Origin: Actinacidiphila alni | GTDB taxonomy: Bacteria > Actinomycetota > Actinomycetes > Streptomycetales > Streptomycetaceae | DNA: 64,000 bases | Direction of reading: 5' to 3' | Assembly (NCBI RefSeq): GCF_900112845.1 | Contig: NZ_FONG01000001.1 | Span: 124,001 to 188,000, forward strand | Shown here: positions 1 through 13,988 of the stretch, in pieces | Position numbering within the stretch: position 1 is the first letter of the stretch | How the letters are laid out: each line of letters opens with the position of its first letter | Program-made: the position numbers and the translations under genes | The notes under the pieces: model-generated | What the model was told of the DNA's origin: nothing | The model's input: the letters and a program-made list of their open reading frames with translations, nothing else | Databases searched by the model: none

Positions 1-1200
1 CTGCGGCAGCGGGGCGGCCGAGCTGCCCAGCACGCTCGCCAGCGTCTTCAGGTCCGGGGTCTGGAACGCCGGGTCGCTCTGCGCGGCCTTGACCGGCGGC
101 AGCGAACCGTACGTGGAGTTGAGGGTCTTCTGCTCGGCGTCGCTGGTCATGAAGTTGACGAACTTCAGGGCGCCGTCGATGTTCTTGGAGTTCTTGAAGA
201 CCGCCAGGTTGATGCCGGCCACCATCGAGGTGACACCGGCGTCACCGGTCGCGCCCGCCTGCTGGGTCGGGACCGGGACCACGCCGTACTGGTCCGGGTT
301 CATGCCGTGCGACTTGATGGAGGTGGCGGCGGACTGCCACATCATCATCGCGGCCTTGCCGGTGGCGAAGTCGGTGATGGTCTGGTTCTGCGCGTACTCC
401 GCGTTGCCCTTGGCGGCGATCTTGTCCTTGGCGATGAAGTCGACGTACTGCTTCACCGCGGCGACGTTGTTCGGGGTGTCGAAGGTCGCCTTGCCGGACG
501 CGTCGAACCAGTCCGAGCCCCGCTGCTTGGCCAGCACGAAGGCGTGGTGGATGTTCTCGGAACCGTTGCCGCCCTCGACCGCCAGACCGTAGTGGCCGCC
601 GGTGGTCAGCTTCTTGCCGTCCGCGACCAGCTCGTCCCAGGTCTTGGGCGGGTTGGCTATGCCCGCGTCGGCGAACATCTTCTTGTTGTAGTACAGCCCG
701 TACGCCATCGAGTACAGCGGCACCGCGGCCGGGTCCTTGCCGGCCGCGCCGGCGGCGGCGATCGAGGCGGGCGCGAACTTGTCCTTGCCGCCGATCTTGG
801 CGAACGTCGCGTCGTCGAAGGGCAGCAGGGCGCCGGTGGCCTGGAGGGAGGCCGACCACGTGTTGCCGATGTTCAGCACGTCGGGGCCCTGGCCGGACGT
901 GGCCGCGGCCAGGATCCGGTTGAGGAGGTCCGACCACGGGATGACCTCCAGCTTGACCTTGATGCCGGTCTGCTGGGTGAACTTGGCCAGTTCGGGGGTG
1001 AGCACCTGCTTGTCGTTGTCGAGGCTGGTGCCCTGGTTGCTCGCCCAGTACGTCAGCGTGCCGCCGCTGGAGGACTTGCCCTTGCTGCCGCTGCTGCCGT
1101 TGTCGTCGTCCCCGCCGCCACAGGCGGAGAGGGTGAGACCGAGCGCGGCCACGAGGGCAGTGGCCGCGAGGAGTCTGCTGGAGGTGCTGGAGGTGCGCAT
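1..1200 (-). CDS. Sugar ABC transporter substrate-binding lipoprotein (3' end cut by window edge)
   Basis: Extracellular solute-binding protein of the family-1 (MalE-like) type, which would capture an oligosaccharide or sugar outside the membrane for an ABC importer. The ATG at 1200 starts a lipoprotein signal: Arg/Ser n-region, Ala/Leu core and lipobox LTLSAC with Cys27, then a Gly/Asp/Ser-rich linker. The mature part has the family's features: a TLTYWAS start, 'VIPWSDLLNRILAA', 'GPDVLNIG', 'PLYSMAYGLYYNKKMF' and 'PPKTWDEL'. About 400 codons are visible and the frame runs off base 1, so only a short C-terminus is missing compared with the usual 420-440 residues. The permease genes would lie left of the window. 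It is divergent from the ROK regulator at 1349 across a gap with two inverted repeats, so that regulator probably controls it. Sugar specificity cannot be read from the sequence. Confidence 0.9.
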   Translation of the reverse strand, partial: MRTSSTSSRLLAATALVAALGLTLSACGGGDDDNGSSGSKGKSSSGGTLTYWASNQGTSLDNDKQVLTPELAKFTQQTGIKVKLEVIPWSDLLNRILAAATSGQGPDVLNIGNTWSASLQATGALLPFDDATFAKIGGKDKFAPASIAAAGAAGKDPAAVPLYSMAYGLYYNKKMFADAGIANPPKTWDELVADGKKLTTGGHYGLAVEGGNGSENIHHAFVLAKQRGSDWFDASGKATFDTPNNVAAVKQYVDFIAKDKIAAKGNAEYAQNQTITDFATGKAAMMMWQSAATSIKSHGMNPDQYGVVPVPTQQAGATGDAGVTSMVAGINLAVFKNSKNIDGALKFVNFMTSDAEQKTLNSTYGSLPPVKAAQSDPAFQTPDLKTLASVLGSSAAPLPQ

Positions 1201-3677: not shown

Positions 3678-4913
3678 TCAGACGCCCCACTCCGCGCGGG
3701 TCGCCGCGAAGACCTCGTGGAAGCCGGGGAAGGTCTTCTTCACGCACCCCGGGTCGTCCAGGACCGTGCCCGGCGTGCGCAGCGCGGCGACGGAGAAGCT
3801 CATCGCGATGCGGTGGTCGCCGTGGCAGGCGATGGTCGCGGGCGCCGGGGTCCCGGGCCGGATCTCGATCCAGTCCCGGCCGGTGGCCACCTCGACGCCC
3901 TGGCGGCGCAGATTGTCCGCGCACGCCTCCAGCCGGTCGCACTCCTTGATCCGGGTGTTGTAGACGTCCTCGATCCGCACCGGGCCGTCCGCGAACGGGG
4001 CGATGGCCGCCAGCGTCGGCATCGTGTCCGAAATGTCGCGCATGTTGACGGTGAGTCCGGACAGCCGGCCCGTGCCGGTGACCGTCGTGGCGTCCGTACC
4101 GATCTCGACGTCGGCGCCCATCCGCCGCAGCACCTCCACGAAGGCCAGGTCGCCCTGGAGGGCGTCCGCGCCGAGGCCCTCCACGGTCGCGCCGCGGCCG
4201 CTGAGCGCGGCGGCGGCGAAGAAGTAGCTCGCCGTGGAGGCGTCCGGCTCCACCGGGTAGTCGGTGGCGCGGTAGCCGCCCGGCGGCACCACGAAGGTGT
4301 CGCCCTCGCGGGCGACCTCGACACCGAAGCGCCGCATCATCGCCAGGGTGATCTCCACATAGGGCGCCGACACCAGATCCGTGACGCGGATCCGCAGGCC
4401 CTCGGCCATCAGCGGCCCGGCCAGCAGCAGCGCGGTCAGGAACTGCGAGGACAGCCCCGCGTCCAGCTCGATCGCCCCGCCCTTGAGGCCGCCCGCGACC
4501 ACGGTCAGCGGCAGATGGCCCTCCGCCTCCTCGTGCGTCAGGTCCACCCCGAGCGAGCGCAGCGCGCCGGTCAGCGGCGCCACCGGCCGGCGCCGCATCT
4601 GCGCGGAGGCGTCGAAGCGGTACGTGCCGTGGCCCGCGGCGGCCAGCGCGGGCAGGAAGCGGGCGGCGGTGGCCGCGTCACGGCAGTAGACGTCCGCCTC
4701 CGGCACCGCGGGCCCGGCCGGGCGGCCGGTGATCCGCCACACGTCCGGCTCGCGCTCGACCCGGTACCCGAGCCGGACCAGCCCCTCCGCGAAGCCGTCG
4801 GTGTCGTCCGACAGCAGCGGACGGCGCAGCGCACTCGTACCGTCCGCCGCGGCGGCGAGGAAGAGGGCGCGGGCGGTCACCGACTTGGAGCCGGGGACGG
4901 CGACGACTGACAC
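3678..4913 (-). CDS. aroA: 3-phosphoshikimate 1-carboxyvinyltransferase (EPSP synthase), divergent paralogue
   Basis: Catalyses shikimate-3-phosphate plus phosphoenolpyruvate to EPSP in the shikimate pathway. 411 residues, GTG start at 4913 with GGAGG upstream. Conserved: 'PGSKSVTARAL' (Lys/Ser/Arg at residues 10-16), 'YNTRIKECDR' (catalytic Asp region and Lys), 'GDHRIAM' and 'CVKKTFPGF'. The N-terminus is about 15-20 residues shorter than E. coli AroA. The PEP/glyphosate loop reads D79-A-A-T-A-A-R-F, where E. coli has N94-A-G-T-A-M-R-P; thus Ala81 replaces Gly96 and Phe86 replaces Pro101. Streptomycetes usually have a housekeeping aroA elsewhere plus such a paralogue. It stands alone here, with no other shikimate gene in the window. 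Family is sure; housekeeping versus specialised role is not. Confidence 0.88.
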   Translation of the reverse strand: MSVVAVPGSKSVTARALFLAAAADGTSALRRPLLSDDTDGFAEGLVRLGYRVEREPDVWRITGRPAGPAVPEADVYCRDAATAARFLPALAAAGHGTYRFDASAQMRRRPVAPLTGALRSLGVDLTHEEAEGHLPLTVVAGGLKGGAIELDAGLSSQFLTALLLAGPLMAEGLRIRVTDLVSAPYVEITLAMMRRFGVEVAREGDTFVVPPGGYRATDYPVEPDASTASYFFAAAALSGRGATVEGLGADALQGDLAFVEVLRRMGADVEIGTDATTVTGTGRLSGLTVNMRDISDTMPTLAAIAPFADGPVRIEDVYNTRIKECDRLEACADNLRRQGVEVATGRDWIEIRPGTPAPATIACHGDHRIAMSFSVAALRTPGTVLDDPGCVKKTFPGFHEVFAATRAEWGV

Positions 4914-5053: not shown

Positions 5054-6241
5054 TCAGAAGGTCACCGGCAGCTTGTGCACCCCGCGGATCAGCAGGCCGG
5101 GGCGCCAGGTGAGGGCCGTGGGCGCCGCGGCCAGCGCCAGGTCCGGGCAGCGCTCCAGCAGCGTACGCACCGCGATCCGGCCCTCAAGCCGGGCCAGCGG
5201 GGCGCCCAGGCAGTAGTGGATGCCGTGGCCGAACGCCAGGTGCCCCTGCGTCCTGCGGCGGATGTCGAACGTGTCCGGCTCCGGGAAACGGTCCGGGTCG
5301 CGGTCGCCCGAGGCCAGCGCGATCAGTACGGGCTCGCCGGCCGTGATCCGCGCCCCGCCGATCTCCAGCGTCTCGCCGGCGAACCGCCAGGTCGCCGTCT
5401 CGACCGGCCCGTCGTAGCGCAGCATCTCCTCGACCGCGCCGTCCAGCAGCCCGGGATCGGCGCGCAGCGCGGCCAGTTGACCGGGGTGCCGGAGCAGCGC
5501 CAGCATCCCGTTGGAGATCAGATTGACCGTCGTCTCATGGCCCGCGACCAGCAGTAGGAAGGCCATGCCGACCAGCTCCTCGGGCGAGAGCCGGTCGTCG
5601 TCCTCGTCCCGGGTGCGGATCAGCGCGCTGAGCAGGTCGTCGCGCGGCGCGGTGCAGCGCTTGTCCTCGATCAGCTCCACGAGATACGACGTCATCGCGG
5701 TGACGGCCGCGGCCTCCGCGTCGGGTCCGGTCGGCCCGACGATCTCGTTGGACCAGCCGCGGAACGCCTCGCGGTCCAGGTCGGGTACGCCGAGCAGTTC
5801 GCAGATGACGGTCATCGGCAGCGGGAAGGCCAGCGCGTCGACCAGATCGGCGGCGCCGTGCGGCAGCATCGCGTCGATCAGCCCATCGGTGATCGCCTGC
5901 ACCCGCGGGCGCAGCGCCTCCACCCGGCGCGGGGTGAACTCCCGCGCCACCAGCTTGCGCAGCCGGGTGTGCCGCGGCGGATCGGAGTCGAGCATGTGAC
6001 TGGCGAAGCCCGCCAGTTCCGCGCCGTCCGGCATCACCGACAGCCAGTTCTTGCTGAGCCGGGGGTCGGCGAGCGCCGCGCGGGCCTCCTCGTAGCCGAC
6101 GACCAGCCACATCTCGCCGGTCTCCGGCGTACGGACCCGGTGCACGGGCCCGCGCTCGCGCAGCCGCGCGTAGACGGGATACGGGTCGGCGGTGAAGTCC
6201 TCGCCCGCCGCGTGCAGATCGACCGTTCCGATGAAGCTCAC
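5054..6241 (-). CDS. Cytochrome P450
   Basis: Class I bacterial P450 monooxygenase, 395 residues, soluble. Seen: I-helix oxygen-activation motif 'AGHETTVNLI', the K-helix ExxR in 'EEMLRYDGPVETATWR' with 'TWR', and the heme-thiolate loop 'FGHGIHYCLGAPLARLE' with its Cys ligand. The GTG start at 6241 is preceded by GGAGGGGG. No ferredoxin or ferredoxin reductase gene is adjacent and no biosynthetic genes flank it, so redox partners must come from elsewhere and the substrate is unknown. Size, the ETT variant and the loop fit the CYP105/CYP107-like streptomycete families, but a subfamily call would need an alignment. Confidence 0.95.
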   Translation of the reverse strand: MSFIGTVDLHAAGEDFTADPYPVYARLRERGPVHRVRTPETGEMWLVVGYEEARAALADPRLSKNWLSVMPDGAELAGFASHMLDSDPPRHTRLRKLVAREFTPRRVEALRPRVQAITDGLIDAMLPHGAADLVDALAFPLPMTVICELLGVPDLDREAFRGWSNEIVGPTGPDAEAAAVTAMTSYLVELIEDKRCTAPRDDLLSALIRTRDEDDDRLSPEELVGMAFLLLVAGHETTVNLISNGMLALLRHPGQLAALRADPGLLDGAVEEMLRYDGPVETATWRFAGETLEIGGARITAGEPVLIALASGDRDPDRFPEPDTFDIRRRTQGHLAFGHGIHYCLGAPLARLEGRIAVRTLLERCPDLALAAAPTALTWRPGLLIRGVHKLPVTF

Positions 6242-6299: not shown

Positions 6300-6923
6300 T
6301 CACGCGGTGTCGGCCAGCCGTTCCAGGAGGTCGGTGAGGCGCTTGGTGACCGTCTCGCGGTCGCCCGAGGTCAGGGCCGAGCCCATGCCGACGGCGGCGG
6401 CGCCCGCCGCGACCCAGTCCGGCGCGGCGGCCACGGTGATGCCGCCGCAGGGCAGCAGCGCCGCCTGCGGCATGATCGCCCGCACATCGGTGACCCAGGC
6501 GGTGGTGAAGGACGTCGCCGGGTAGAGGGTGAGCGCGTCGGCGCCCCATTCCATCGCGCGCACCACCTCGCCGGGCGTGGCGACCCCGGGGAAGACCGGG
6601 ACGCCGTAGCGGTGGCCGGTGCGCAGCACGTCCTCGTCCAGGCTCGGCGAGAGCAGGAAGCGGGCGCCCGCCTCGATCGCCATCCGCGCCGACACCGCGT
6701 CCAGCACGGTGCCCGCGCCGATCACCGCGTCGTCGCCCACCTCGCGGACCAGCGTCGTCACCGCCTCCAGGGCGAACGGCGTGGTGAGCGAGATCTCCAG
6801 CGTGGTCAGGCCCGCCGAGAGCAGTGTGTCGGCGGTCGCGGCGGCCTGGTCGTAGCTCTCGCTGCGGATGGTGGCGAACACCCGCTGGGCCAGTGCGGCC
6901 CGCGTGATCTCCCAGCGGTACAC
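6300..6923 (-). CDS. KDPG/KHG aldolase family protein lacking the Schiff-base lysine
   Basis: 207-residue TIM-barrel protein of the 2-keto-3-deoxy-6-phosphogluconate / 4-hydroxy-2-oxoglutarate aldolase family. Family features: 'TLEISLTTPFAL' (catalytic Glu43 retained), 'VIGAGTVLDAVSARMAIEAGARFLLSP', 'PVFPGVATPGEVVRAMEWGADAL' and 'LLPCGGIT'. The class I aldolase lysine normally sits in 'LKLFPA'; here the segment is L131-T132-L-Y-P-A, codon ACC at 6530-6528, so the lysine is replaced by Thr. The Arg after Glu43 ('LRT' in E. coli Eda) is also Thr. Normal Entner-Doudoroff aldolase activity is therefore doubtful. It lies alone between P450 and a small secreted protein. A sugar-acid lyase or non-catalytic role is possible; the annotation 'eda' would be risky. 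Confidence 0.75.
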   Translation of the reverse strand: MYRWEITRAALAQRVFATIRSESYDQAAATADTLLSAGLTTLEISLTTPFALEAVTTLVREVGDDAVIGAGTVLDAVSARMAIEAGARFLLSPSLDEDVLRTGHRYGVPVFPGVATPGEVVRAMEWGADALTLYPATSFTTAWVTDVRAIMPQAALLPCGGITVAAAPDWVAAGAAAVGMGSALTSGDRETVTKRLTDLLERLADTA

Positions 6924-8279: not shown

Positions 8280-10129
<1,850 letters not shown>

Positions 10130-10133
<4 letters not shown>

Positions 10134-11017
10134 GCGGTGCCTTCCTGGGGCGGCGGCCCGTACAACGGCAGCCGGGGATCGGGGAGTTGGTCCGCCCAGG
10201 ACGTGCGCACCCAGGCGTGCGCCGGGTCGTCACTGATCAGCCAGGCCCGTTCGGGGCCGGGACCCGCCATCACGTTCAGGTAGTACATGTCGTAGCCGGG
10301 CACGGCCATGCTCGGGCCGTGCCAGCCGTCGGGGATCAACACCGCGTCCCCGGTGCGGACTTCGGCCAGCACATCGGTCGCCCCGGCGGGGGAGGGATAG
10401 ACGCGCTGGTAGCCCAGGGCGGCCGGGCCGCCGCCGAACTCGTAGTAGTAGATCTCCTCAAGGACCGACTCGTGCGGGCCCGCCTCGTCGTGCTTGTGCG
10501 GCGGGAAGGAGGACCAGTTGCCGCCGGGGGTCAGCACCTCCACCGCGATCAGACGGTCGCAGCCGAAGGCGTCCGCCGCCGCGAAGTTGTTGACCTGGCG
10601 GGTCGCGCCGCCGGCCCCGCGCACCTCCACCGGCACCGCGGACGCCGGGCCGTGGCGCGCCGCCAGCCGCCGTTCGCAGCGCGCGCCCGCCAGCGCGAGG
10701 CGGCAGCCGCCGGGGCTGCGCAGCACCGCCCGCGCGTCCCGCGGCACATACGCGAAGTCGCTGACCCCGTCGAAGACCGAGGCGCGCCCGCGCAGCGGGA
10801 AGACGGCCCGCTCCCCGGCGCCGTCCAGCACCTCCACCGTGGCCGCGCCCGCCAGCGGCAGCACGATCCATTCGCTCTCCCCGGCCGCGAACCGCCGCTC
10901 CCCGCCGGGCTCCAGCGTCAGCACCCGCAGCGACGAGTACGCCCACCCGGCGGTCTCCGGCTCCACCCACAGGTCGTACCCGTCCCTGGCGGTGCTGCCC
11001 GCGGCCAGATGCGTCAC
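10130..11017 (-). CDS. iolB: 5-deoxy-glucuronate isomerase
   Basis: Isomerises 5-deoxy-glucuronate to 2-deoxy-5-keto-gluconate, the substrate of IolC. 295 residues, a bicupin; the metal-binding cupin residues are seen in 'FPPHKHDEAGPHESVLEEIYYYEF' (His, His, Glu cluster) and a later 'PDGWHGPSMAVPGYDMYYLNVMAGP'. The GTG at 11017 was chosen because it has GGAGGAAGC just upstream and overlaps the iolC stop by GTGA; a longer open frame reading through iolC in another frame is not coding. Translational coupling on both sides (iolC and iolD) supports tight co-expression. Confidence 0.96.
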
Positions 11018-12015
11018 GCTTCCTCCTCGACTCCCGTGCCCGTGCCCGTGCCTGCGCCCGCGGCGGCTGTCGCGTTCGGCGCGGCGAGCATCGCGTCGAT
11101 CTCGGCGCGGGTCGGCATCGCGTCCGCGCAGGCGAGGCGGGCGGCGACCAGGGCGCCCGCCGCGTTGGCGGCGCGCAGGGTGTCCGGGAGCGGCGCGCCC
11201 GACAGCAGACCGGCACACAGCGCGCCGCCGAAGGCGTCGCCCGCGCCGAGGCCGTTGACGGCCTTGACCGGGACGGGCGGGACGACGTGCTGCTCGCGGG
11301 CGGTCCGGCCGAGCACGCCGGCCGGGCCTTGCTTGACGATCGCGGTGCGCACGCCGTGCCGCAGCAGCAGGCCGGCCGCGGTCTCCGGATCGCGGCTGCC
11401 GGTCGCGACTTCGGCCTCGGCGATATTGCCGACGGCCACCGAGGCGTACGACAGCGCGCGGGCGTAGAGGTCCGGTGCCTCGGCGGCGTCCGCCCAGAAG
11501 CCGGGCCGCCAGTCGAGGTCGAACCAGACCTCGCCGCCCTCGCGGGCCTCCAGCGCGGCGAAGACGGTGGAGCGGGTGGGTTCCACGGCCAGCGCGGAAC
11601 CGGTGATCCACAGGGCCCGCGCGGCGCGCACCGCCGCCCGGTCGAGCCGGTCAGGCGTCAGGCACTGGTCGGGTGCGACCGGCCGCCGGTAGAAGTAGAT
11701 CGGGAAGTCGTCGGGCGGGAACAGCTCGCAGAAGACGACGGGGGTCTGCACCCCGGGCACCGTGGTGACCAGCGCGTCGTCCACGCCGAAGTCCCGCAGC
11801 GCGCCCCGTACGTAGCCGCCGAAGGGATCGTCGCCGACCCCGCTCAGCAGCGCCGTCCGCAGCCCCAGCCGGGCCCCGGCGACCGCCACATTGCTCGCCG
11901 TCCCGCCCAGCGACTTGGCGAAGCTCCGCACGTCCGCCAGGCCCACTCCGCTCTGCTCCGGGTACAGATCGACCCCGACCCGGCCGACGGTGATCACGTC
12001 GTACGCGGCGCTCAT
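11014..12015 (-). CDS. iolC: 5-dehydro-2-deoxygluconokinase
   Basis: PfkB/ribokinase-type kinase that phosphorylates 2-deoxy-5-keto-gluconate in the inositol pathway. 333 residues from ATG 12015. Seen: 'VITVGRVGVDLYPEQSGVGLADV', 'SLGGTASNVAVAGARLGL' (sugar-binding GG motif) and 'VNGLGAGDAFGGALCAGLL' with the catalytic Asp of GAGD. The C-terminus ends in a Thr-Gly repeat encoded by a short (CCCGTG) run at about 11035-11052, which could vary in length by slippage. It lies 43 bp after iolE and overlaps iolB by 4 bp. No IolJ aldolase or methylmalonate-semialdehyde dehydrogenase gene is present in the window, so the last steps are encoded elsewhere. Confidence 0.96.
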   Translation of the reverse strand: MSAAYDVITVGRVGVDLYPEQSGVGLADVRSFAKSLGGTASNVAVAGARLGLRTALLSGVGDDPFGGYVRGALRDFGVDDALVTTVPGVQTPVVFCELFPPDDFPIYFYRRPVAPDQCLTPDRLDRAAVRAARALWITGSALAVEPTRSTVFAALEAREGGEVWFDLDWRPGFWADAAEAPDLYARALSYASVAVGNIAEAEVATGSRDPETAAGLLLRHGVRTAIVKQGPAGVLGRTAREQHVVPPVPVKAVNGLGAGDAFGGALCAGLLSGAPLPDTLRAANAAGALVAARLACADAMPTRAEIDAMLAAPNATAAAGAGTGTGTGVEEEA

Positions 12016-12058
12016 CGCGCGGCTCCCGATGTGCGCTCCGGCCGCGGTGCGTGACCGG

Positions 12059-12907
12059 TCACGCGTCGGCCAGCCAGCGCAGCGAGGTGCGGACGTCGGC
12101 CAACGGGCCCTGGTCCGGTGGGGGTTCCTCGGTGAGGACGGTGTCCTGCTCCATGACGTACCAGCCGGTGTAACCGGCCGCTTCGAGGTCGGTGACCAGG
12201 GCGCGCAGATCGAGGCCGCCGTGGCCGAGGGGGCGGTAGAGGCCGTCCTTGACGGCGGCGGTGTACGTGGTGCGGCCGTCGCGGACGGCGGCGGCCGTGT
12301 CCGGGTCGACGTCCTTGAGGTGGACGTGGCCCACGCGGCCGGCCGCGCGGTGCGCGAGGGCGACCGGGTCGGTGCCGCCGATGAGGAGGTGGCCGGTGTC
12401 GAGGCACAGGCCGATGCCGCTGCCGTCGAGCACCCGGTCCACCTCGGCGGGGCCCTCCACGACGGTGCCGACATGCGGGTGCAGCGTGGCGGTGACGCCC
12501 AGCGACGCGGCGAGGGCGGCGGCCTCGTCGAGCCGCGACAGCAGCAGGTGCCACCCCTCGGGGGAGACCGCGGGCCGCTCGTCGTAGCCGTCGAGGCCGG
12601 TCGCGGCGGCCAGCACGAGGGTGCGGGCGCCCGCCGCGGTGAAACGGTCGAGCGCGGCCCTGATGCCGGGCAGCGGGTCGTGCTCCGCGTCGTGCAGCAC
12701 CGCCGGGACGAAACCGCCGACGGCGGTCACGCCGTGCGCGGCCAGCAGCGGCCCCGGCAGAAAGCCGTCGGGCCCGAACTCGCTGGCGCCGATGCCGAGC
12801 CCGGCCATCTCCGCCAGCACCCGCTCGGGCGTCAACTGATGCCCCCAGCCGGGCACTTCGCACACCCCCCAGGAAATCGGCGCCCCGGCGATCCGCTCGG
12901 CCCTCAT
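12059..12907 (-). CDS. iolE: Myo-inosose-2 dehydratase
   Basis: Removes water from scyllo-inosose (2-keto-myo-inositol) to give the trihydroxycyclohexanedione used by IolD. 282 residues, xylose-isomerase-like TIM barrel. It begins 'IAGAPISWGVCEVPGWGHQLTPERVLAEM', the signature of IolE proteins. Metal-site regions are visible as 'TLHPHVGTVVEG' (His), 'GLCLDTGHLLIGG' (Asp/His), 'VGHVHLKDVDP' and the final 'WYVMEQDTVL' (Glu). Start ATG 12907. It is the second gene of the operon, 43 bp from iolG and 43 bp from iolC. A generic sugar phosphate isomerase/epimerase is an alternative name, but the context makes IolE nearly certain. Confidence 0.93.
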   Translation of the reverse strand: MRAERIAGAPISWGVCEVPGWGHQLTPERVLAEMAGLGIGASEFGPDGFLPGPLLAAHGVTAVGGFVPAVLHDAEHDPLPGIRAALDRFTAAGARTLVLAAATGLDGYDERPAVSPEGWHLLLSRLDEAAALAASLGVTATLHPHVGTVVEGPAEVDRVLDGSGIGLCLDTGHLLIGGTDPVALAHRAAGRVGHVHLKDVDPDTAAAVRDGRTTYTAAVKDGLYRPLGHGGLDLRALVTDLEAAGYTGWYVMEQDTVLTEEPPPDQGPLADVRTSLRWLADA

Positions 12908-12950
12908 TCCCTCACCGTCCCCGCCCGCCGCGCGGCGAGTCGCTGCCGCC

Positions 12951-13988
12951 TCATGCCACCACCCCGCTCACATCGTCCTCATGTACCCGCATGCCCACCT
13001 CGTCCACCGCCACCGGGCGGTGTTCGCGGCGCGAGATCTCGCACGCCTCGGCGACCAGGAGGGCGCGCAGCGCCTCATGACCCTCGCAGGGATTGGGGTC
13101 GGTGCCGCGGACGACGCGCAGGAAGGCGGCGAGTTCGGCGCGGTAGGCGGGGGCGAAGCGGTCGAGGAAGCCCGGCCAGGGGGCGGCGGTGGCCGGCGGC
13201 GCGCCCGGTTCGACGGAGCGCAGCGGCGCGCGCGGGCCGGTGCCGACCGCGATCTGGTCGTCGGACCCGGCCAACTCCATCCGGACGTCGTAGCCCGCGC
13301 CGTTGTAGCGCGTCGCGGTCGCCGTCGCGAGCAGACCGCCCTCCAGGGTGAGCAGCGCCGCCGCGGTGTCCGCGTCGCCCGCCGCCCGGAAGAAGTCCGC
13401 GCCGCCGTTCGCCCCCGCCGCGTACACCTCGGTGATCTCCCGGCCGGTGACCCAGCGCAGCATGTCGAAGTCGTGGATCAGGCAGTCCCGGTACAGCCCG
13501 CCGGACTGCGGTACGTACGCGGCCGGCGGCGGCGCAGGATCGGAGGTCACCGCCCGCACGGTGTGCAGCCGGCCGAGCCGCCCGGACCGTACCGCCTCGC
13601 GCGCCGCGCCGTAACCGGCGTCGAAGCGCCGCTGGAAACCGATCTGCAGCACACCGCCCGCCGCCCGGACCGTACGCAGCGCCGCCACCGTACCGGAGAG
13701 GTCGAGCGCGACCGGCTTCTCGCAGAAGGCGGGGACGCCGGCGCGCGCGGCCCGGGTGATCAGCGCGGCGTGCGCGGCGGTCGCCGAGGCGATGACCACG
13801 GCGTCCGGCGCCGCCTCGAAGAGCGCGTCCACCGAGAGCGCGGCCCGCCCGCCGACCGCCGTCGCGACCTGCCGGGCCCGCAGCGGATCGGAGTCGGCGA
13901 CCGTCAGCTCGCCGACATCGGGATGCGCGGCCAGCGTGGCGGCGTGGAAGGAGCCGATCCGCCCGGCGCCGATGAGTCCGATCCGCAT
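12951..13988 (-). CDS. iolG: Inositol 2-dehydrogenase (Gfo/Idh/MocA family)
   Basis: NAD-dependent oxidation of myo-inositol to scyllo-inosose, the first step of the pathway. 345 residues; Rossmann motif 'RIGLIGAGRIGSFHAATLA', 'AVVIASATAAHAAL', the 'CEKPVALDL' motif with the catalytic Lys typical of Gfo/Idh/MocA enzymes, and 'IHDFDMLRWVTG' with the Asp/His pair. ATG 13988 is preferred over an upstream TTG (14009): GAAGGGG lies upstream of the ATG, and the Rossmann start is directly at the N-terminus. It is the first gene of the minus-strand iol operon and diverges from the GntR gene. A related sugar dehydrogenase is possible, but iolE-C-B-D following it makes inositol the likely substrate. 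Confidence 0.93.
   Translation of the reverse strand: MRIGLIGAGRIGSFHAATLAAHPDVGELTVADSDPLRARQVATAVGGRAALSVDALFEAAPDAVVIASATAAHAALITRAARAGVPAFCEKPVALDLSGTVAALRTVRAAGGVLQIGFQRRFDAGYGAAREAVRSGRLGRLHTVRAVTSDPAPPPAAYVPQSGGLYRDCLIHDFDMLRWVTGREITEVYAAGANGGADFFRAAGDADTAAALLTLEGGLLATATATRYNGAGYDVRMELAGSDDQIAVGTGPRAPLRSVEPGAPPATAAPWPGFLDRFAPAYRAELAAFLRVVRGTDPNPCEGHEALRALLVAEACEISRREHRPVAVDEVGMRVHEDDVSGVVA

Follow-up and report, generated by a model that had tools for sequence, protein, structure and literature searches.

A KDPG-aldolase-family protein of Actinacidiphila that lacks the Schiff-base lysine

The gene and its altered active site

The window, a stretch of 64,000 nucleotides from Actinacidiphila alni, carries on its minus strand a gene for a protein of the KDPG/KHG-aldolase family which has a threonine at the position of the Schiff-base lysine. 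The open reading frame starts with GTG, and GAGGAAGGA stands upstream of the start codon. The gene and its notable codons are listed here, with counts in three sets of orthologues: the 25 Thr-bearing sequences of the window's clade (the Thr clade), the 55 orthologues that carry the lysine, and the 12 other lysine-less orthologues.

6300..6923, minus strand: KDPG/KHG-aldolase-family protein without the Schiff-base lysine, 207 amino acids (from the open reading frame, PF01081, the AF2 model and PDB superposition)
6528..6530, minus strand: Thr132 codon ACC, at the Schiff-base lysine position (from the sequence and an alignment to T. maritima-derived chains)
6522..6524, minus strand: Tyr134 codon; Phe in 55 of 55 Lys-bearing orthologues, Tyr in 25 of 25 in the Thr clade
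6870..6872, minus strand: Thr18 codon, two residues before Arg20; Ile or Val in 54 of 55 Lys-bearing orthologues, Thr in 25 of 25 in the Thr clade
6864..6866, minus strand: Arg20 codon, kept; 25 of 25 in the Thr clade, 54 of 55 Lys-bearing, 12 of 12 other lysine-less
6795..6797, minus strand: codon of the general base Glu43, kept; 25 of 25 in the Thr clade, 55 of 55 Lys-bearing, 11 of 12 other lysine-less
6708..6710, minus strand: Thr72 codon (GAGT motif), kept; 25 of 25 in the Thr clade, 47 of 55 Lys-bearing, 12 of 12 other lysine-less
6447..6449, minus strand: Cys159 codon, at the E. coli Thr161 position; in the Thr clade Ile 17, Val 3, Cys 2, Thr 2, Met 1
6342..6344, minus strand: codon of Lys194, the sole lysine of the protein, in the last helix; also in 52 of 55 Lys-bearing orthologues

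The original prediction was that the LKLFPA segment of the family reads LTLYPA here, with an ACC codon for Thr132 in place of the lysine codon, and that Glu43 is kept. Both statements hold. The minus-strand codons at 6533-6522 encode Leu131-Thr132-Leu133-Tyr134, an ungapped phmmer alignment places Thr132 on the Lys of LKLFPG in T. maritima-derived chains, and the structural superposition described below agrees; Glu43 is present in all 25 sequences of the Thr clade. The prediction had overlooked the changes of Phe134 to Tyr and Thr159 to Cys, and the fact that K194 is the only lysine of the protein. The Schiff-base lysine, on strand 6, is K133 in E. coli and K129 in T. maritima, and Arg20 and Thr72 occupy the positions of T. 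maritima Arg17 and E. coli Thr73; further named residues of the E. coli enzyme are R17 and E45.

The protein matches PF01081 with 130.5 bits (cut-off 27.8) over profile positions 8-183 of 196, and falls below the cut-off of the NCBIfam Eda model TIGR01182, with 149.9 versus 156.05 bits. The genome holds three PF01081 genes, this one among them.

The AF2 model of the protein has a mean pLDDT of 96 and a pTM of 0.91. It superposes on 1wa3_A over 202 residues (5..206 on 2..203) with an rmsd of 1.5 and a Z of 31.5, and the constant offset of 3 places Thr132 on residue 129 of 1wa3_A. The model and its superposition show the (beta/alpha)8 barrel of KDPG aldolase, so that the protein is predicted to fold as a normal member of the family. 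It resembles the KDPG/KHG aldolase Eda (PF01081; T. maritima 1wa3/1vlw) in fold, length, catalytic Glu, Arg20, and the GAGT and GG motifs, at 31-32% identity and the Z of 31.5 given above, but it has Thr132 for the Schiff-base Lys, Tyr for Phe134 and Cys for the phosphate-site Thr. KDPGal aldolase (2v81/2v82) has the same fold, with a Z of about 28 and 28% identity, and the protein differs from it by Thr132, Tyr134 and Cys159, as it does from Eda. According to PMC3962226, the phosphate/aldehyde site of the E. coli enzyme consists of T161-G162-G163-S184. The corresponding Gly160, Gly161 and Ser182 are kept here, and Cys159 stands in for the Thr (most of the clade has Ile).

A check proposed with the original prediction was to model the structure and look for a displaced lysine or a metal site. 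There is no lysine at position 159 or anywhere else except K194, which lies in the C-terminal helix. As 52 of the 55 orthologues that retain the active-site Lys have it too, K194 is not a catalytic lysine that has moved. A relocated lysine was therefore rejected; the finding that would have countered the original prediction, a second lysine placed at the active site, did not appear. The pocket positions compared in the sequences showed no conserved set of metal ligands. Both observations bear on the idea that a different lysine or a metal keeps the protein active as an aldolase. The site could in principle have moved, as an E. coli enzyme engineered as K133Q/T161K was crystallised (title of 1fwr), but the T161K position is Cys159 in this protein, and with its single lysine in the last helix and no set of metal ligands, residual aldolase activity of this kind is hardly credible. 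The aldol cleavage of the family goes via a Schiff base on the active-site lysine. Since that chemistry uses the missing residue, the protein should be unable to act as a class I aldolase and has presumably lost this activity.

Proteins of this family in which the lysine has been replaced are known from the laboratory: the engineered I3-01 K129A nanocages and E. coli K133Q/T161K (1fwr) still fold and assemble. PMC12148025 uses the I3-01 cage as K129A. Those mutants are laboratory products, whereas the loss described here is natural, repeated and kept by selection. Full-text literature searches, with partial coverage, found no description of natural lysine-less KDPG aldolases.

Distribution of the lysine among orthologues and paralogues

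Thirty-two of 35 Actinacidiphila genomes have an orthologue of at least 74% identity, and the remaining three have only paralogues. At site 132 these 32 orthologues carry Thr in 25 cases, Lys in 5, Met in 1 and Arg in 1. As a control, the other PF01081 matches listed for the same 35 genomes were inspected (60 loci plus the window genome's own two paralogues), and 62 of 62 have Lys. Thr132 is thus not a chance event, since a 95% identical orthologue from an independent genome (L005/L034) and 23 more in the genus have Thr at the site while all 62 paralogues have Lys. A sequencing error was considered and rejected, because Thr occurs at the site in 25 genomes of the genus.

The genome's two Lys-bearing paralogues would also offer partners for mixed trimers, in which the lysine-less protein would serve as a subunit of an active aldolase; the family is trimeric according to PMC12148025. 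But identity to these paralogues is only about 34-39%, and their genes are on other contigs; such an arrangement is very improbable.

Over all first-round loci, those of the genus included, 92 distinct orthologues (at least 50% identity) comprise 55 with Lys, 27 with Thr, 3 with Met, 3 with Arg and one each with Gln, Asn, Gly and Ala, so that 37 are without the lysine. The outgroup rows L001, L002, L064 and L114 stand outside these counts, and L001 and L064 also outside the tree. The lysine codon is AAG or AAA in 55 of 55 Lys-bearing orthologues. Where relatives of the locus are named, most of the records are from Actinacidiphila or Streptomyces. In one related genus, of which 392 genomes were drawn, 51 had a match; the 31 loci with new sequences (40 minus 9 that repeat earlier sequences, not deduplicated among themselves) have Lys in 30 cases and Met in one. 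Scans of the genus around three relatives gave no further orthologue.

A maximum-likelihood tree was built from 94 rows with columns 132 and 134 removed. The 25 Thr sequences of the window's clade form a single group with support 100/99, and the lowest identity inside it is 75%. On this tree Lys and non-Lys must have interchanged at least 8 times (8 throughout the 5%-95% range of bootstrap trees), and the starred branches alone force 5. If lysine was never regained, we read about ten independent losses, to T, M, R, Q, N, G and A: the Thr clade, L119 (Met), L093 (Arg), L112 (Gln), L111 (Arg), L088 with L110 (Met), L108 with L060 and L061 (Asn/Gly/Ala), L059 (Thr), L084 (Thr) and L103 (Arg). L241, the Met-bearing sequence among the new loci, is not part of the tree. 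The replacement codons are mostly one base from a lysine codon (ATG, ACG, AGG, CAG, AAC). The Gln132 sequence of G040, outside the Thr group, was reported with one TAG within the matched stretch; the tblastn match used has 204 columns and is without the TAG.

Gene neighbourhood

A PfkB kinase gene lies directly upstream of many Lys-bearing orthologues; the NCBIfam model that it matches best is KDG/KDGal kinase, with a score under the cut-off. A KDPG-forming kinase next to a KDPG-cleaving aldolase is a classic pairing. In the 64 of 92 orthologue loci that are longer than 9 kb (the wide loci), the kinase is adjacent to 22 Lys and 2 non-Lys orthologues, and not adjacent to 13 Lys and 27 non-Lys orthologues. 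In the 31 new loci it accompanies 15 Lys-bearing genes and is missing from 15 Lys-bearing genes and the one with Met, although its absence from L245 is uninformative, as that locus extends only 55 bases upstream. Taken over the wide and the new loci, 28 Lys-bearing loci have no adjacent kinase. In the 35 genomes of the genus, the best PfkB match to the partner kinase is at most 48% identical, and several of these matches adjoin paralogous aldolases, so the dedicated kinase appears to have been lost from the genus.

Thirty of 31 members of the kinase cluster have the PfkB motif GAGD. The exception is L111 (7001-7954), a PfkB protein with GAGP encoded directly upstream of an Arg132 aldolase; judged by their residues, this kinase and its aldolase look as if both were inactivated together. 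Against a simple rule linking kinase and lysine, the Thr132 aldolase of L059 adjoins a kinase with an intact GAGD. Most of the lysine losses fall where the KDG-kinase-like neighbour is absent or damaged, but the phylogeny is too clustered to test the link: a pair test had 4 independent pairs (p = 1), and it is powerless because the presence of the kinase changes only 3 times on the tree. The two-by-two table is striking but not statistically independent of phylogeny, so that kinase loss stands as a possible, not a proven, cause of the lysine losses.

Downstream of the gene in the window lie two others on the same strand:

5054..6241, minus strand: cytochrome P450 gene, 58 bases downstream, a variable neighbour; within 1 kb in 11 of the 19 wide Thr-clade loci
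3678..4913, minus strand: gene of a second, AroA-type EPSP synthase, more constant in the genus than any other downstream neighbour; TIGR01356 410.7 bits, cut-off 287.25

With that frequency, the P450 was ruled out as an obligate partner. The EPSP synthase gene is co-directional within 4 kb in 17 of the 19 wide Thr-clade loci; in the two exceptions it lies 8 kb away on the opposite strand (L126), or the locus ends 1.3 kb downstream (L036). In the genus it likewise stands downstream of the orthologues with Lys, Met or Arg, so this shared arrangement is probably older than the loss of the lysine and independent of it. The genome has seven PF00275 genes; the EPSP synthase gene of the window is one of them, and its product is 37% identical to the other AroA-type copy.

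Inositol catabolism genes (iolD, iolB, iolC, iolE-like and iolG-like) adjoin the locus at 8280-13988 of the window. The iolC gene is unfused, and no aldolase for its product was found among the window genes checked up to 21.3 kb. Given these neighbours, the lysine-less protein was considered as the missing aldolase of the inositol pathway; this is not supported, because that reaction too is expected to need the lysine in this fold.

In Streptomyces, a small secreted PF00545 ribonuclease (barnase-like; L096, 6294-6719) is a frequent upstream neighbour of the aldolase or its kinase. A promoter and terminator scan found nothing, as expected for a high-GC organism. Context genes were called by a custom GC-position script, so small genes may be missed; the target itself was uncalled in two outgroup loci.

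Selection, pocket changes and possible function

The gene is under strong purifying selection in the Thr clade. Its omega (GY+F3X4) is 0.039 there (25 genes), compared with 0.062 in a Lys-bearing sample (26 genes, every second row after omitting L062, L106 and L107) and 0.073 in a side group of 7 lysine-less genes and 1 Lys-bearing gene. Median pairwise NG86 dN/dS values are 0.17, 0.25 and 0.32 for the three groups, higher in absolute terms with the order unchanged. In the 19 wide Thr-clade loci the gene has an omega of 0.044, and its neighbours have 0.032 (AIM24, 19 loci), 0.062 (EPSP synthase, 17), 0.074 (ROK, 18) and 0.111 (P450, 11); with a value inside this range, it is as constrained as functional neighbours. 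The intact frames and the omega rule out a pseudogene in the Thr clade.

These values bear on the suggestion that the gene is a decaying orphan, dispensable after the kinase was lost, with the lysine loss as its first visible damage. The many independent losses, to seven residues that are mostly one base from a lysine codon, are what such decay would produce, and so is the erosion of the pocket in side lineages, where Gly160 is Ala or Cys in four rows and Glu43 is Gln in one. But in the Thr clade the omega lies below that of the Lys-bearing orthologues and on a par with functional neighbours, the frames are intact, Thr is fixed clade-wide, and identity does not fall under 75%. For this clade decay is improbable. 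Pocket erosion looks more like decay in the side lineages, and the Thr clade and the side lineages may for that reason have had separate fates. The lysine-less L060, L061, L088 and L110 also have Cys or Ala for Gly160, the phosphate-loop glycine, which suggests for them another, more eroded fate than that of the window's clade.

Within the Thr clade three changes, I18T, K132T and F134Y, are fixed together in 25 of 25 sequences. From the alternation of residues along the strands, positions 18, 132 and 134 would all face the barrel interior. Position 159, which is Thr in 45 of the 55 Lys-bearing orthologues, is usually replaced in the clade. Arg20, Glu43, Thr72, Pro93, Gly113, Pro135, Gly160 and Gly161 are invariant; invariance at the ligand site compared with the background (9 of 11 positions versus 115 of 207) is not significant (p = 0.065).

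The original prediction proposed a new reaction or a ligand-binding role. That proposal gains from the lack of a replacement lysine, the purifying selection and the fixation in a clade of 25 sequences, and the product very probably does something other than its annotation says. We lean towards a pseudoenzyme, which would have arisen as follows. The dedicated kinase would have gone from the genus and left the aldolase orphaned, although the order of events could be different. The orphaned aldolase would then have lost its Schiff-base lysine repeatedly, once as Lys to Thr in the ancestor of the window's clade, and the product, unable to form a pyruvyl Schiff base, would not be a class I aldolase. 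It would have kept the residues that bind carboxylate and phosphate and the general base (R20, E43, T72, G160-G161), in a pocket retuned at T18, T132, Y134 and residue 159. Such a protein would bind a 2-oxo acid or a phosphorylated sugar acid non-covalently, as a sensor, a carrier or a partner subunit. The strong selection, together with the retained base and anion-binding residues, makes non-covalent binding the likeliest role, and we think the pseudoenzyme reading somewhat better than an even guess. Against it counts that a new catalytic activity would be an equally good explanation of the three pocket changes fixed together.

A new lysine-independent reaction in the Thr clade would use Glu43 as the base, with Thr132, Tyr134 and Arg20 in the reshaped pocket. 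It could be, for example, an enolisation, isomerisation or dehydration of a 2-oxo acid, and might be connected with the co-directional genes for the P450 and the second EPSP synthase. It would account for the joint fixation of I18T, K132T and F134Y and the mostly Ile residue at 159, and it fits the invariant catalytic Glu and anion-binding residues, the lowest omega of the three groups and the EPSP synthase gene's steady place in 17 of 19 wide loci. But the neighbours do not track the lysine, since orthologues of the genus with Lys, Met or Arg stand in the same operon order; in other lineages the Lys gave way to seven different residues and these pocket changes are absent; and we know of no such lysine-free reaction in the KDPG-aldolase family. 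A new reaction is a serious but rather unlikely alternative to non-covalent binding. More doubtful still, and bolder, is the conjecture that the barrel shed its lysine repeatedly in Streptomycetaceae and that the Actinacidiphila clade rebuilt it (I18T, K132T, F134Y, T159I/V/C) into a lysine-free 2-oxo-acid enzyme of an unrecognised pathway with the second EPSP synthase.

The fold and the family are known; what is new here is that the defining catalytic residue has been lost about ten times in one orthologous group, with the protein still under selection. With no losses in same-genome paralogues, nature has in effect run a replicated experiment on how an enzyme dies or is converted. Lys-bearing and lysine-less orthologues, about 80% identical, occupy the same locus, so that the remaining function is directly testable. 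The case also calls for caution with annotation, in that family profiles name such proteins aldolases despite the missing defining residue.
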